A stretch of DNA of 64,000 bases from Tubulanus polymorphus (lineage: Eukaryota > Nemertea > Palaeonemertea > Tubulaniformes > Tubulanidae), in the NCBI RefSeq assembly GCF_964204645.1, contig NC_134028.1, forward strand, positions 20,992,153-21,056,152. The letters run 5' to 3'. The position numbers and the translations under genes were made by a program. This document shows, piece after piece, positions 13,901 to 57,963 of this stretch; the stretch's first letter is position 1, and each line of letters opens with the position of its first letter. The notes beneath the pieces were generated by a model that was not told where the DNA came from, did no database searches, and was given only the letters and a program-made list of their open reading frames with translations.

Positions 13901-16900
13901 TTTATTTGATGGACACAACAGCTTGAGATGAGTTGAGATGAAGGCTTCAAATCGTTGAGTCTCCTTACATTTTTCTTCTTTCTTAAGGTTTACGATCACT
14001 TGAAAGAGAAGAAAGAACTAGGTTCGGATGTAAGCATCGATCCGCTCGGATCAAACATCGTAGACATGACGAATAATAATATGTTTACAGTAGTAGAGTT
14101 TACCGCTACCTCTTGTGCTGTGCTAGAGAACGAGGGTCGAGTTCGAATCGGAATTCAACGTTATGGGCGAATGAACAATAGAGTTATGGTGAAGTAAGTG
14201 ATTTGTTTTGTTTGTTTGTTTGTTTTTGACTTTACGTCGCTTGGATCTTGGTTTCCAAAGACAAACCCTATTGGATTATTCAACCTCACGACGGGACGGT
14301 TTTTGAATTGTTGCCAGCACACTGATTCTCAATTCCTCCCCCAGCGGGTCAAGCTCCTCCAATGGCCTCTTTGCTCCCCAGAGGGTTTGTTAGCGCCTCC
14401 AATATGGGCCTGTTAGCTCCTCCAGCGGGTCTGTTAACTCCTCCAGCGGGTCTGTTAGCTCATCCAGAGGGTCTGTTAGCACCTCCAACGGGTCTGTTAG
14501 CTCATCCAGCGGGTCTGTTAGCTCATCCAGCGGGTCTGTTAGCTCATCAAGCGAGTCTGTTAGCTCATCCAGCGGGTCTGTTAGCTCATCCAGCGGGTCT
14601 GTTAGCTCATCCAGCGGGTCTGTTAGCTCATCCAGCGGGTCTGTTAGCTCATTCAGCGGGTCTGTTAGCTCATCCAGCCAGTCTGTTAGCTTATCCAGCG
14701 GGTCTGTTAGCTCATCCAGAGGGTCTGTTAGCTCCTCCAACGGGTCTGTTAGCACCTCCAACGGGTCTGTTGCTCCTCCAACGGGTCTGTTAGCTCCTAC
14801 CAGTGGATCTGTCAGCTCATCCATCGAATCTGTTAGCTCATCCAGCGAATCTGTTAGCACCTCCAACCGGTCTGTTTGCTTACTGATATTCAAATCCGAA
14901 TTCTAGGTCCATTATTTGTATCCAGATAACCGTGGAGACTCTATAGGTGGCTCTTGCCTAATGAATTATAGATCTGGCAATTGAAACAGTTCGAGCCTAA
15001 CAATTTCGAGGACATCATTTTGTAGCGAGTTGTTATGACAACCTATGCATTAATTTCCTGCACACATTTCCAATTACTTGAAATATCAAACTAATAGTTT
15101 GCTGTTTGTGAAGCTACTGTCCTCGTGGATCTGTTTTTGAATGGTTTAATTACCACGTACTCCAGTGGATATCGTGGGTATCATCCTCTATTATCATGAT
15201 GTTTTAAACACAAAACTACGAAAGATAGTATGAATCGCAGTAGTGAAATTATCGCATTGTATCGCAGTTTTTGAATTGTGAACTTATGACTCTTAAAACT
15301 GCTGACAAGAATTGATCAAATATATGGGCCAACACCCGGGGCTGGCGGGAAGGAACCAAACCCTGGCAAGCGAGGGTGGTAAACTGTTTTCGTTAATAAG
15401 CGCGTTTGTAATTAAAACCTAATTAAACCTAGTTTGTAATAAAATCTGTGGAGTTAGATGTTCGATATGTCAAGTTGTTGTCAACTCTTCTCAAATTACA
15501 AAAAAATTCTTTCTAAGTTCGACGAATGGTTTGCATTGTAACTCTATAACCGCGTATGCATAGATGTATTGTGTGTGTGTATCATTTTGTATGATCTACG
15601 AGCAATCATCTCAACTTAAGATAATTGCTCGTAGGTATCACCTTACTGGTGCGCTATTTGCTCAAAGTTATCCGGTTGGAAAGATCGTACTTCCTCAAGT
15701 ACCTTGTGCACGTTGATTCGCGTCATCGATATATGCAATTTTTGAACCCGCTAAGCACCATCCTGTATTCGTGTTCTTCTCTAGTTCGTAGTACATCTGA
15801 ACGTATTCGAGAAAATGACTATTGGGATATTGTCGAAACTTTGAATAAGTCAAGGAAACGTTTAAGACTTTATTTTTCATTCGTATCGCATGATTTTATT
15901 GACCTAACGGTTTTTATATGCAGAGTGAATACTGTAAATGGAACCGCTGAAGCCGGATCTGATTATATTCCCGTCAAAGAAACTCTCGTCTTCGAGCCGA
16001 ATGAAAAATCGAAGAATCTCGACATCGAAATAATCGACGACGACGTCTGGGAACCGGATGAGGTGTTCTTCGTCAAACTTGTCGTCGATGAAAATCAAAA
16101 CAAGGGTTGCGTCGCCGGCGCTAAATCGATTTGTCAAGTTACTATTCTCAATGACGATGGTGAGTATAGTTTGTTTTCTACTTTTCATCTGGCGACTAAT
16201 ATCGTTCTGTTCCGCACTGACCTTAGAATGGTATAGTGTCATATGTGTCTAGTAATCGTTAACCAAGGACTGTGTGGAACTGTGGAACTGTGGAGAACTG
16301 GTTCTTGTGTAGGAAATGTTAGAACTTTAGCATACAAGAATGTTTTAGCAACGAAATATCAATTTCTATCGAATTTCCGAGGGACACTACTACGACTTTC
16401 TACTAGATTAGTGGTATTTTGTCCCATGTAGCCGGACCTTACATCGTACACCCCTAGCTATTCGATTATAACAATTTTTGTCACTTGTGTCACTTGTAAC
16501 AGGACCTTAAATCAAACGCCCCTAGCTGTAGTCTAGTACCTAGCCGCTGTTCCTGAAACAACGGCTAGGTTATCAACGGTTGTACCAAAACGTAAACAAA
16601 GACTGGTATTCAGACTACCCTAGCTGTTACATGGTGACGATTAGACCTTAAATCATATACGCCCAGCTCTTCTATACTGTTCCTGGAGACATGAATTGCT
16701 GTATCTATTAATGCCCTAAATGGAAAGTCGTAATCTAGTAAATTATGTCCCCTCTGGAATTCCATAGATTTCAGCGTGAATTACATCTTTTTTTCTTCTC
16801 ATTTCATTCACTCTCCACCTTTGAAATGATCAATATTACAGAACCCGGGAAGATAGAAATCGAGAATCCGACGTATGTATTCAAAGAGAGTGCCGGCAAA

Positions 16901-23724: not shown

Positions 23725-23870
23725 ACACCCATCCTCACTTGCCAGTGTTTGATTGCCGCCCGCTGAAGCTTATGACAATACAAACCCTGGCCGCAAACCG
23801 TTCGTCTATTACATTGCCCACGCGATTTCTTGGGCGGACAGGTTCCCGCTTAGTTCACATCAGTCTAGTA
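23725..23870 (+). repeat. Dispersed repeat (GCCAGTGTTTG...ACAAACCCTGGCCGC), copy 1
   Basis: Shares CATCCTC...CTTGCCAGTGTTTG, GCCGCCCGCTGAAGCTTA, ACAAACCCTGGCCGCAAACC and TTGGGCGGACAGGTTCCCG with copies at 25437-25665 (inverted) and 28431-28650 (direct). Non-coding and non-autonomous; class unknown. Confidence 0.75.
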
Positions 23871-23938
23871 GCCGGTGTCGGGTGAAAACGTCCTCGCATA
23901 CCCGGTCAAAACGGCCTCGCTTTTGTCGGTCAAAACGT

Positions 23939-24387
23939 CTAATGTCTATTTCAACCTGACTTGAGAGCATTCCGGGTGGCCTAGCTCGCTCATTTTTGGT
24001 AGTACATATCTGATAAAGGTCTTAGTACGACCAGAAAGGACTGGCAGTCGACCTTAAACATCATTTTTTAATCCATTTTAAACTGTATTGAAGGATATCC
24101 AAAAAGTCTTCACTGAAAGGGGTTAAATGAAGAGAAGTGACTCCATGATTTGAAAGTTTAACAATATGCCTACATACCAAACTTCAGTTGGTAGGCATGG
24201 AGACATATTGTTAAACTTTCAAATCATGGAGTCTCTTTTCTCTCATGAACCCCTTTCAATAAAGACTTTTTGGATATTCTTCATTCCGTTTAAAGTGGAT
24301 TAAAAAACGATGTTTAAGGTCGACTGCCTGTTTTTTCTGAGCTAGGCCACTCGGAATGCTCTCAAGTCAGGTTGAAATAGACATTAG
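23939..24387. mobile_element. 449-bp foldback element
   Basis: The two halves are imperfect reverse complements. The outer ends are CTAATGTCTATTTCAACCTG and its complement; the centre (near 24183) has TTTAACAATATG...CATATTGTTAAA. The left arm has about 50 extra bases near 24000. It encodes no protein, and I could not see a clear target duplication. It is a long-palindrome MITE or foldback transposon. Confidence 0.8.
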
Positions 24388-24755
24388 GGCGAACCTGCTC
24401 ATATTAGGTGAATTTTCGTCCCTCATTTTGAGGGACGAGGCTTTGAGTGTCTATTTCACCCCTTAAAACACTTTCAACTTACCTCAAACTGACTGTTCTG
24501 TCTGTAATCGAATGGAAGTTACCGGTAACTATTCTTTGTGCATAAATAATCCTAAGTAGCTTTTGACGATCGTAGTAACTCAAAACTTTTGACTAGTCGC
24601 CTCAAAAAATAGTTGAAGTGAAGCAACATAACAAATATTGCGGCTTTTCGTGTTGCATGCATGATGAGTTAACCTCTATATGGCACTTTCGCGTCAGAAG
24701 TTGTTAGAGGCAACCGTAACAACGACTGGTATTCAGACTAACCTGTCTGTATATC

Positions 24756-24895
24756 TGTGACAGAGTGTCTAACAGCGTTCCTACTAGCTCAGCTAGCGGG
24801 AATATTCCCTTTGGCTCAGCGGTAGAGCGTCTGCTTTGGACGCCAGGCATCGAGAGTTTGAATCTCGGGAGGGACAGAAATTTCTTCCTGTTACA
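24756..24895 (+). repeat. LTR 1 of the TRIM-like array, with tRNA-like core
   Basis: 140 bp. It contains an A box TGGCTCAGCGG (24812-24822) matching the Pol III consensus. Its B-box position reads GTTTGAATC, one base off the consensus found in the other two LTRs. No run of four T occurs. Confidence 0.85.
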
Positions 24896-24897
24896 TT

Positions 24898-24911
24898 TGG
24901 GGGCTCGTCCG
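24898..24911 (+). promoter_or_regulatory. Primer-binding site for tRNA-Pro, internal segment 1
   Basis: TGGGGGCTCGTCCG begins two bases after LTR 1. It is the 14-nt complement expected for the 3' end of eukaryotic tRNA-Pro including CCA, the same primer class as murine leukaemia-type retroviruses. The tRNA end is from general knowledge and was not checked against this genome. Confidence 0.75.
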
Positions 24912-25027
24912 TCTCTGCGATAACCCTGGGTCCAAGTTCATGTCGTCCCACAGTCGTCATGAGTGGTAATGTCAATCACCTTAGGGAATCACGACACGAG
25001 GATGTGTCCTTTCAAGAAGGCGGTGAG

Positions 25028-25167
25028 TGTGACAGAGTGTATAACAGCGTTCCTACTAGCTCAGCTAGCGGGAATATTCCCTTTGGCTCAGCGGTAGAGC
25101 GTCTGCTTTGGACGCCAGGCATCGAGAGTTCGAATCTCGGGAGGGACAGAAATTTCTTCCTGTTACA
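25028..25167 (+). repeat. LTR 2 of the TRIM-like array, with tRNA-like core
   Basis: 140 bp. A box TGGCTCAGCGG at 25084-25094 and B box GTTCGAATC at 25128-25136 both match Pol III consensus. The D-arm GCTC/GAGC is intact. Confidence 0.85.
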
Positions 25168-25169
25168 TT

Positions 25170-25181
25170 TGGGGGCTCGTC
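25170..25181 (+). promoter_or_regulatory. Primer-binding site, internal segment 2 (shortened)
   Basis: TGGGGGCTCGTC follows LTR 2, after which the sequence jumps to TCTGCG. Compared with segment 1, four bases are missing, leaving 12 matching positions. This accounts for the 128 versus 132 bp internal lengths. Confidence 0.7.
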
Positions 25182-25295
25182 TCTGCGATAACCCTGGGTC
25201 CAAGTTCATGTCGTCCCACAGTCGTCATGAGTGGTAATGTCAATCACCTTAGGGAATCACGACACGAGGATGTGTCCTTTCAAGAAGGCGGTGAG

Positions 25296-25435
25296 TGTGA
25301 CAGAGTGTATAACAGCGTTCCTACTAGCTCAGCTAGCAGGAATATTCCCTTTGGCTCAGCGGTAGAGCGTCTGCCTTGGACGCCAGGCATCAAGAGTTCG
25401 AATCTCGGGAAGGACAGAGATTTCTTCCTGTTACA
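25296..25435 (+). repeat. LTR 3 of the TRIM-like array, with tRNA-like core
   Basis: 140 bp, with a few substitutions relative to the others (AGCTAGCAGG, TGCCTTGG, ATCAAGAG, GGAAGGAC, AGAGATTTC). A box 25352-25362 and B box 25396-25404 are intact. It is followed directly by the TATC duplication. Confidence 0.85.
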
Positions 25436-25436
25436 T

Positions 25437-25665
25437 ATCTAACCAATCAGACGCGTGGTATTGAGCAAATGATGCCGGTAAAAATGCGTCTGATTGGCTG
25501 GATATGTAGACTGGTGTGAGCTTAGCGGGAACCTGTCCGCCCAAGAATTCTTAAGCGATGTTGGCATAATAGACCAGTCAAAGGGTTTGCGACCAGGGTT
25601 TGTATTGGCGTAAGCTCCAGAGGGCGGCAATCAAACACTGGCAAGCGAGGATGAAGCACACCACA
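25437..25665 (-). repeat. Dispersed repeat (GCCAGTGTTTG family), copy 2
   Basis: Inverted copy that directly abuts the right end of the LTR array. Its edge, read inward, is TATCTAACCAATCAGACGCG; the related copy at 28431-28650 has ATATCTAGCCAATCAGATGC at the matching place. That suggests the array's TATC target site lay at the edge of this repeat. Confidence 0.7.
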
Positions 25666-54994: not shown

Positions 54995-55936
54995 TTATTT
55001 CAGCGAATTTCTACAGTGGATTTTCATACAGAAATATTCACGAATTTCTCGCCCCAGTAAAAGATATATATAGAAATTGACCACAAAGTTACAAGCCAAG
55101 AATTGTGTGAATATGTCAAGTAGAAAATCTCTCTGTTCCGGTGAGATATGTAAATATACAATAATAGTATTTGGAAGTGTAAACATTGCAAATGCGAGTG
55201 AAACTGTTACAAGCATTATTGTTGTACGTTTTGATTTTGTAGTTTTCTGATCAGATGAAACCATTTTTGAACCTCTGAATAACTGAAATATTATAAAAGA
55301 ATTTGATGTTATGATCAAAGTTAACGGTAAAATGTTAAAGTGGATGACGAATATGTAGAAAACTTTTATTTGATCAATCAACCGGAAGAAGCATCCGAAA
55401 AACTGGTCGGTAAATTGTATCGACAAAGCAGGGCTGAGATATTGAATCAGCGCATTCACTGCCGTAATTATCAATATAGCAAATCTAGCGAATCTCGGTG
55501 TACATATCAAACGAGATGTGAACGGGAAGAGTACAACTGCCGCACGTTCTAGAGTTATCGCTACAATGAACCACGAACTGCTGTTGCTCGCGAGTATCAT
55601 TACAGATTCATAGATTTGACAACTGATCAGTGAGCTCATGATGAATATAGGACCATTAACGTGCAAGAGAACGAATTGTAAAACAGGCATCAGCGTATAG
55701 TTGATACAGTATATAGAATCACTAAGGGACAAAACGATAAGATAGTTAGCGTATGATAAACTTCGGAATCTAGGACTTAACATTATCAGGAAAGTAGCTG
55801 AATTTCCGAAGGCTCCAAACAGGAACACGATATGTAGAATTATCAGTGATACAGTACGGTAGATTCCAGCCTTGTTCACCAAGGACATAAGGACGATGTA
55901 ACTGTTGTATGGTCGACCGATTTTAGTTGAATTCAT
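54995..55936 (-). CDS. Class A (rhodopsin-like) GPCR, intronless (313 aa)
   Basis: Single open frame from ATG at 55936 to stop at 54995, with seven hydrophobic segments. TM1 has GNSATFLIML; TM2 LIVLSLSDSIYCINY (the conserved Asp); TM3 ends LERAAVVLFPF, an ERA variant of the DRY motif. A cysteine before TM3 (ISCQIYES) and one in loop 2 (FFGCFF) could form the usual disulfide. TM6 ends FAMFTLPNTII, keeping the proline but not the CW; TM7 reads CNFVVNFYIYLLLGREIREYF, in place of NPxxY, followed by a helix-8-like segment. No signal peptide; the N-terminus is short, with no obvious glycosylation motif. The pattern fits invertebrate peptide-type orphan receptors (FMRFamide-like or related), but the ligand cannot be inferred. 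Plasma membrane. Confidence 0.8.
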   Translation of the reverse strand: MNSTKIGRPYNSYIVLMSLVNKAGIYRTVSLIILHIVFLFGAFGNSATFLIMLSPRFRSLSYANYLIVLSLSDSIYCINYTLMPVLQFVLLHVNGPIFIMSSLISCQIYESVMILASNSSSWFIVAITLERAAVVLFPFTSRLICTPRFARFAILIITAVNALIQYLSPALSIQFTDQFFGCFFRLIDQIKVFYIFVIHFNILPLTLIITSNSFIIFQLFRGSKMVSSDQKTTKSKRTTIMLVTVSLAFAMFTLPNTIIVYLHISPEQRDFLLDIFTQFLACNFVVNFYIYLLLGREIREYFCMKIHCRNSLK

Positions 55937-57963
55937 GATTCAGAATAGATAACTGATGAACGCATGAATTGAATGTATGAATAGACTGACGCAAAATAAA
56001 TTAAAGCCTTATTGTGTTGTTATTCATTGAAATTCACAGTTTATTGCTCGTATCAAATCGAAAATCAATTCTTAATACAATTTACTCAGATTTTGTGAAA
56101 GTTTCTTACATTGTGTAAAGTGTTGTATTCTCTAAAATACAAATGTTTCTAAATTAAATCATAAATATTCGTTGTATAAGAATTCATTGTAAACGGTGAA
56201 ATATCTTGTAGCAAAACCTGTGAACTGGTTGGAAATTGTTAGCGCACGTTCTAGGCTAGGTTAAAACAATATCACAATTCCCATCTATGAGTAGGACACT
56301 GTCACACCTGACTCGCGGTGCCGGAGGTTCCGAGTACGAACCCAGTGAACCCATCCATGATACTTTTGAAAGTAAAGAAAACACGCAAATACGTTTGGAA
56401 AAGGATGGGAATACAGATAAACCTAACGGAAGATGTTCAGGCTGTATTGTGAAGTTTTAAAACTACCTGTGTTAATAGGTACAGCAGCAGGAATTGGGTA
56501 CATGGTCGGAGCTCCGTTTAGACGGTACCAGGAGCCCGTAAGATAGAACGAAGTAAACTTCCAGTTATCATAAAACACATCGTACTAATGAACGTTTTGG
56601 CATTAAGCGGTCTCTAAAAAACCTCCATATTGGATGGTTTCAATTCTTAGGATTTTGTATTTTCAGGTTGGATATATGACGCGAGCGGCCACATTTCTTC
56701 ATTTGAACTTTTTTTGCTATCAAACTACACTATGTAAAACCTCATTTCATGACACTCACTTGCCAATGTTTGATTGAATTGGCGACAGTTTTAGTAGCGA
56801 TCAGTGTTCTGACAATGATACCATCCGTTCATTATCGAGTGCAAAATCTGGAGAAATTGGTCGTATTTGATAAGGTTTTCTGTACCGGTATCGCAGAGAT
56901 GGGAAGAGTATAGCCGGACGTGAGAATGTATTTTATTTTGTGTTTATGAGAGAATATTTGCTAGTGGCTGAAAAGGACTTTCAAAGAAATTGTACATTGT
57001 GCCAACTTTTTAAAACTTTTCTGTAACTTTCCATCAGTGTCATTCTTTTTGATGTAATGAATCTTGGGCAATGTTTCATACAATGCGTTATACAAGGTAT
57101 ATTTCTAAGGAAATATACTGCGAGAAATATACTGCGACAGGTGGTTTTGCAGTCATTGCAAAAATAAGATTAAGAGCCTCTAGAGATCCGGTAATGGAGG
57201 GAGAAATCACAAAGAATGTTCAATGAAGAGTAAAAGATCAGAAGTATGAAAATAATAAACGAGGAACGCTGTCGCTGTAACGAATTGTAAATCTTCTTAT
57301 ATAGATTTAAACACTGCCATTTGGCGGCGGGAGGATGTGAATACTATAATAGTGAATAATGTAATAATCTGGATTTAACTGAGGCAGTTTGTGATTTACA
57401 CATCATCGAACACATGTATTTATACTGTTGAGACCTGTACTGTGGGTGAGAAATAAACTAGACGTCTTCGAATACAGTCGTTTTGGCGTTCGTAATCTAC
57501 CAGGGAATAGGCGTTTACAACGTCCCAGTAAATGAAAGTTGGCCTACGTGTAAAACCAATGAACATATACCGTATCATACAAATCGCATCGAACCAGCAT
57601 GAAATTTTCAACATAAACTTGAAAAAAAGAATCAAAAATTGAATGAAGTCACGATGAGAGAAGAGCAAACAGATCTAGTCAAGTGCAACATCGGCTCGTA
57701 ATGTCGTATGAAAAAAAAAGAAATAAATTTGAGATTTAGAAACACTGAGTTAAATAACTAGATCTAATTTATCGCTTTCCAATCTAAATTGTCTAATCGT
57801 AGAATAAGAAAACTTCTTAAGATTATAGACAACCGAATTGCAAAATCGAAAGATAAGACGACTTCGCGCAAAACTACGAAATCTCGGAGCGTAGAAAAAC
57901 TAAAAACTAAACTCAAATGTAAGATGGTTTTGCTTTTGAATAATTTGTTAGATACAAGATAAC
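55937..57963. other. Intergenic upstream of the GPCR
   Basis: Anonymous DNA; probable GPCR promoter and 5' UTR on the minus strand near 55937-56100, without recognisable elements. Small open frames such as 57420-57668 show no coding features. Confidence 0.4.

Follow-up and report, generated by a model that had tools for sequence, protein, structure and literature searches.

The array at positions 24756-25435 of the window (the whole 64,000-nucleotide stretch of Tubulanus polymorphus DNA that was analyzed) is a new Helenus-type family in a palaeonemertean, of a kind that is already known. Helenus elements (TRIMp3) are TRIMs with tRNA-derived sequence in their LTRs (Kojima, 2024; PMC10886601). 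We are highly confident in a reading in which a TRIM of this type, putatively transcribed by Pol III and mobilized by a Gypsy-type element, inserted as LTR-internal-LTR and was then tandemly duplicated. What is new is the palaeonemertean family and a candidate helper that matches it at the LTR ends as well as at the primer site.

The initial annotation had described three 140-bp TG...CA repeats within this interval. Its outer coordinates are exact, with TATC abutting both ends, and the repeats are present at 24756-24895, 25028-25167, and 25296-25435. All three start with TGTGACAG and end with CTGTTACA. Together with two internal regions they form a 680-bp array in the order LTR-internal-LTR-internal-LTR, which as a whole is bounded by TATC on both sides. 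No ORF of at least 150 amino acids was found in the window element. The features are as follows:

24752..24755, no strand: 5' target-site duplication TATC, identical to 25436-25439
24756..24895, + strand: LTR 1, 140 bp, TG...CA, direct repeat
24805..24876, + strand: tRNA-like segment of LTR 1, RF00005 21.9 bits, below gathering
24812-24822 and 24856-24864, + strand: A box and B box (one change) of LTR 1, read from the sequence
24896..25027, + strand: internal region 1, 132 bp, between LTR 1 and LTR 2
24898..24911, + strand: primer-binding site, 14 nt, complement of the tRNA-Pro 3' end (genome tRNA-Pro genes), 2 bases past LTR 1
25014..25027, + strand: purine-rich tract preceding LTR 2, read from the sequence and aligned with other copies
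25028..25167, + strand: LTR 2, 140 bp, 2 differences from LTR 1 and 5 from LTR 3
25077..25148, + strand: tRNA-like segment of LTR 2, RF00005 24.5 bits, below gathering
25084-25094 and 25128-25136, + strand: A box and B box of LTR 2
25168..25295, + strand: internal region 2, 128 bp, like internal region 1 minus 4 bp within the primer-binding site
25170-25181, + strand: primer-binding site remnant of internal region 2, 12 nt
25282..25295, + strand: purine-rich tract preceding LTR 3, read from the sequence and aligned
25296..25435, + strand: LTR 3, 140 bp, direct repeat, the original 3' LTR
25345..25416, + strand: tRNA-like segment of LTR 3, RF00005 21.2 bits, below gathering
25352-25362 and 25396-25404, + strand: A box and B box of LTR 3
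25436..25439, no strand: 3' target-site duplication TATC; single TATC in a paralogous host repeat

The host repeat into which the window element inserted has another copy (~80% identity) with a single TATC at the corresponding junction; this copy is a paralogue and not an empty allele. The element lies within nested foldback repeats (window 23730-25653), with arms near 23730-23867 and 25507-25653 and inner arms at 23939-24387, and its flanks have at least 59 and at least 73 genome matches. Elsewhere in the window are a minisatellite (14326-14906) that is open in several frames on both strands, with repeats such as PAGLLAH, and a receptor gene (54995-55939, - strand) with four T. polymorphus paralogues that are 42-63% identical.

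A search of the 268-Mb genome with the LTR sequence gave 36 matches at 34 places, and the 140-bp repeat therefore cannot be due to chance. The proposal of an LTR element called for LTR-internal-LTR copies elsewhere. Such copies occur at four of the 34 places: the window, L009, L010, and L011, the last counted with one LTR (the 5' one) split by an insertion. L009 measures 412 bp and L010 406 bp, both below ~1 kb and inside the 311-1263 bp given for Helenus (PMC10886601). Solo LTRs, intact or damaged, make up most of the remaining places; L012 and L036 still carry a primer-site stub. The insertion in L011 (C2:8920611-8922168) is ~350 bp long and splits the 5' LTR at the A box. It has inverted-repeat ends and B-box-like stretches, with TTTGGCTCA (9 bp) on both sides, features that would be expected if it were a DNA element of the foldback or Mutator-like kind.

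Target-site duplications, the other check proposed for the genome copies, are 4 bp long. Among the 25 of 34 places at which both ends could be set, the duplication is perfect at 17 and missing in that form at eight; control flank pairs taken from different places matched in 7 of 600 cases. Exact matches of 3, 5, or 6 bp numbered zero among the 23 places first counted. The count omits L028 and L029 (duplicates of L027), as well as L034 and L036-L041 (end unrecognized). It takes in L030 and L033, whose LTRs are whole with inner deletions, and scores L012, which has a damaged 5' end and the primer-site stub, as a miss. The ends of L022, L025, and L031 were set by hand, and L031 scores as a match on the condition that its LTR terminates in CG, not CA. 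L027, L028, and L029 (C6:18675733, 18710486, and 18790618) have identical LTR sequences and flanks in common and are therefore most likely segmental duplications rather than separate insertions.

Absence of a primer-binding site would also have counted against an LTR element. Two bases past the LTR lies TGGGGGCTCGTCCG, whose complementarity to the 3' end of the genome's tRNA-Pro plus CCA extends over 14 nt. The genome contains five internal copies at four places, and all five have this site: the tRNA-Pro match is 14 nt long in three copies, 13 nt in L009, and 12 nt in window internal region 2. At the other end, the internal region finishes with AAGAAGG.GGTGAG in the five copies, one of them gapped; this purine-rich tract is interrupted by a T, to which two copies add a C. 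The primer site and the purine-rich tract are signals of tRNA-primed LTR replication. A cluster of tRNA-Pro matches at C4:9296799-9363993, several of them confirmed by ARAGORN, is a possible source of the primer. The internal region has no relatives outside the element in the genome at E≤10. In four copies (window, L009, L010, and L011), 56 consecutive internal columns are invariant, with 16 of 132 columns variable overall. The run, spotted post hoc, has p = 0.00099 as the longest gap under random placement and is perhaps a packaging or dimer signal.

Each LTR also carries a tRNA-like segment, for which the initial annotation had reported an A box in every repeat and a B box in two of three. 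The sequence bears this out: TGGCTCAGCGG is present in all three window LTRs and GTTCGAATC in LTRs 2 and 3, while LTR 1 reads GTTTGAATC. Infernal, one of the checks suggested for the LTR, placed the Rfam tRNA model RF00005 at one common offset in every window LTR: 21.9 bits in LTR 1 (E = 0.07), 24.5 bits in LTR 2 (E = 0.013), and 21.2 bits in LTR 3 (E = 0.1), with E computed over 801 bases. Every score is under the gathering score of 29 bits. ARAGORN called no tRNA anywhere in the window, nor at five further element loci, and Rfam at the gathering threshold gave zero matches across the whole window, so a functional tRNA gene is unsupported by any tool. In a joint Rfam scan of 18 loci, E≤1 was reached by one of the 16 element loci. 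The tRNA-like part folds no better than shuffled sequences (z = -0.54). This part of the LTR is degenerate. With regard to its source, an 88-bp tRNA-like query detected no tRNA gene or SINE; its 36 matches, compared by eye with known element places from their coordinates, all fell at these places.

To compare copies, we used a 31-row LTR alignment that omits L028 and L029 (identical to L027), the fragments L037-L041, and the split 5' LTR of L011. The majority LTR keeps both boxes, TGGCTCAGCGG and GTTCGAATC; an exact A box occurs in 20 of the 31 LTRs and an exact B box in 12. Changed positions make up 4.1% of the A box, 9.0% of the B box, and 5.4% of the remaining LTR. Neither box is thus clearly more conserved among copies than the remaining LTR, as expected of dead copies, and no sign of selection on the boxes is seen. 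TTTT (a T4 terminator) is absent from 30 of 31 LTRs and from window internal region 1. Past the 3' end of the element, it occurs at a distance of 9 to 302 bases in 13 of the 15 places examined, with none at L023 or, in the 400 bases inspected, at the window. A TATA-like stretch, GTGTATAAC, occupies LTR positions 10-18, and AATAAA is found in none of the 31 LTRs.

Four Gypsy-type elements in the genome, so labeled from their domain make-up, have a tRNA-Pro site (L059, L060, L091, and L092). PNMA-like gag and integrase domains are above the cut-off in L059 and L092; for L059, zinc-knuckle, protease, and RNase H domains exceed it as well, and for L092, matches to reverse transcriptase and RNase H fall short of it. 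The LTRs of L060, L091, and L092 start with TGTCACAGG and end with CCGTGACA, followed by a similar spacer and primer site; the LTR of L059 starts alike and ends with CTGTCATA. At the LTR start, the candidate helper has TGTCACAGGGTG and the majority miniature element TGTGACAGGGTG; at the LTR end, they have GTGACA and GTTACA, respectively, and they share the primer site. Thus, all four Gypsy-type elements have nearly the same LTR start as the miniature element and a spacer and primer site of the same type, and the LTR end is similar in L060, L091, and L092. They differ in being longer, with coding domains in L059 and L092, and their internal regions show no likeness to that of the miniature element at E≤10. 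L060, the closest in LTR start and primer site, contains no ORF of at least 140 amino acids, and its LTR carries TATAAA and AATAAA. A 4-bp duplication at L091 was not confirmed (ATGA versus ATCA). The comparison of LTR starts covers these four elements, and different ends, such as GCGACA or GTAACAGAA, precede the site in some of the remaining tRNA-Pro elements of the genome (which include L063-L070). From the similar termini and the shared primer site, we regard the Gypsy group as a candidate for mobilizing the miniature element.

A and B boxes recruit TFIIIC and Pol III. Given both boxes in the LTR, the miniature element is likely to be transcribed by Pol III. The polymerase would start near LTR position 45-50, and the transcript would cover what follows in the 5' LTR, then the internal region, and finally the 3' LTR. 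As the promoter is downstream of the start, it would be included in the RNA and copied to both LTRs. tRNA-Pro would prime reverse transcription using the machinery of a Gypsy element, whose integrase would insert the copy. Since 30 of 31 LTRs and window internal region 1 lack TTTT, the RNA may extend into host DNA. Strand transfer requires that a sequence be repeated close to either end of the RNA, for which the copied stretch from the start to the LTR end would suffice. A more specific version, in which the element has no Pol III stop of its own, reads through into host DNA, uses the start-to-LTR-end stretch as the transfer repeat, and is recognized by a Gypsy helper solely through its LTR ends and primer site, is one that we put forward tentatively, with more doubt than confidence.

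Two other accounts of the element were considered. Clustered tRNA pseudogenes in tandem, or a SINE derived from a tRNA, would fit the tandem layout and the tRNA-like segment. Neither accounts for the 4-bp duplications at 17 of 25 places, the single LTRs, the primer site and purine-rich tract, or the LTR-internal-LTR copies on three other contigs. The termini are TG...CA rather than a SINE tail, and where a SINE would have a tail, long variable duplications, and no LTRs, we find LTRs and duplications of 4 bp. In our view, the duplications, along with the copies at other places, refute this account, and we give it almost no probability; the LTR-element anatomy of the initial annotation is upheld against it. 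In the other account, the TRIM is a Pol II element that uses the TATA-like GTGTATAAC, and its tRNA-like part is a relic of a SINE insertion that has no role. In the majority LTR this stretch is ~30 bp upstream of the tRNA-like start, and both the weak Rfam score and the absence of TTTT from 30 of 31 LTRs favor this account. Against it stand the lack of AATAAA in all 31 LTRs and the retention of both boxes by the majority LTR, and boxes are conserved across Helenus families according to Kojima (PMC10886601). We therefore consider Pol II transcription unlikely.

The third LTR of the array also calls for an explanation. LTRs 1 and 2 differ at 2 of 140 positions, LTRs 2 and 3 at 5, and LTRs 1 and 3 at 7; LTRs 1 and 2 have states in common that are absent from both LTR 3 and the majority LTR; and the sole difference between internal regions 1 and 2 is the 4-bp gap in the primer site. 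This divergence, the shared states, and the near-identical internal regions point to insertion with two LTRs, ageing, and then duplication of one unit. In this order of events, the window copy arrived as a simple LTR-internal-LTR element, and the third LTR came from a later tandem duplication of the LTR-internal unit, making LTR 1 and LTR 2 duplicates that post-date insertion. A three-LTR form could instead have been inserted as such, from a dimeric or recombined reverse-transcription template, and a single 4-bp duplication does enclose the entire array. But LTRs made in one round are expected to be about equally diverged, in contrast to the 2 and 5 differences observed, and neither the states found only in LTRs 1 and 2 nor internal regions that differ just by a 4-bp gap fit this origin, which we judge to be quite improbable.

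The initial annotation presented a tRNA-bearing TRIM in an animal as if it were without precedent. This does not hold: Kojima (PMC10886601) described Helenus from six animal phyla, nemerteans (two Lineidae) included, as well as from fungi and a lycophyte. The same article reports 4-bp duplications and a likely Gypsy helper for Helenus in animals, primer sites that match tRNA 3' ends (tRNA-Pro in some bivalve families), solo LTRs, and tandem arrays in one family; it terms Pol III transcription of Helenus unproven. The Tubulanus family resembles Helenus, as far as that account goes, in the tRNA-like LTR part (a putative Pol III promoter), tRNA primer-binding site, polypurine tract, 4-bp duplications, likely Gypsy helper, solo LTRs, tandem arrays, and nemertean host. 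Within the family itself we see tRNA-derived boxes (sub-threshold), a primer-binding site, a polypurine tract, 4-bp duplications, and no coding capacity. It differs in its palaeonemertean host, and its likeness to the Lineus and Notospermus families is judged from their published description. The main text of PMC10886601 contains no occurrence of "Tubulanus" or "Palaeonemert", and Tubulanus is not in its Table 1. Among the titles found in the literature on Helenus (since 2024), TRIMp3, the T. polymorphus genome (since 2022), nemertean miniature LTR elements, and Cassandra with tRNA-derived Pol III promoters, none reports this family.

Plant Cassandra elements are likewise TRIMs with a small-RNA-derived Pol III promoter in their LTRs, and their tandem arrays are known (PMC7215508). 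In contrast to the tRNA-like part of the Tubulanus LTR, an LTR without TTTT in 30 of 31 copies, Cassandra carries a 5S rRNA part that, as described in PMC10886601, includes terminators. Ajax, from lineid nemerteans, is also a TRIM with a small-RNA promoter but is described as having a 5S rRNA part, 5-bp duplications, and a tRNA-Leu primer; the Tubulanus element has neither the 5S rRNA part nor 5-bp duplications. No 5S rRNA was detected in 24700-25500; apart from tRNA, the Rfam families gave a single match there up to E = 10, to RsmV (10.8 bits versus a gathering score of 100).

These observations place a tRNA-promoter LTR family in a second nemertean class. The family is small, its duplications are clear, and the assembly that contains it also contains a candidate Gypsy helper. 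Similar LTR termini and a common primer site, together with no detected internal sharing, narrow the basis on which a helper would recognize the element. If read-through is true, the family would represent a stripped-down LTR cycle, unlike the defined 5S start and stop of Cassandra, in which an LTR would need no more than a transcribed part and a part upstream of it, with the promoter carried along in the RNA.
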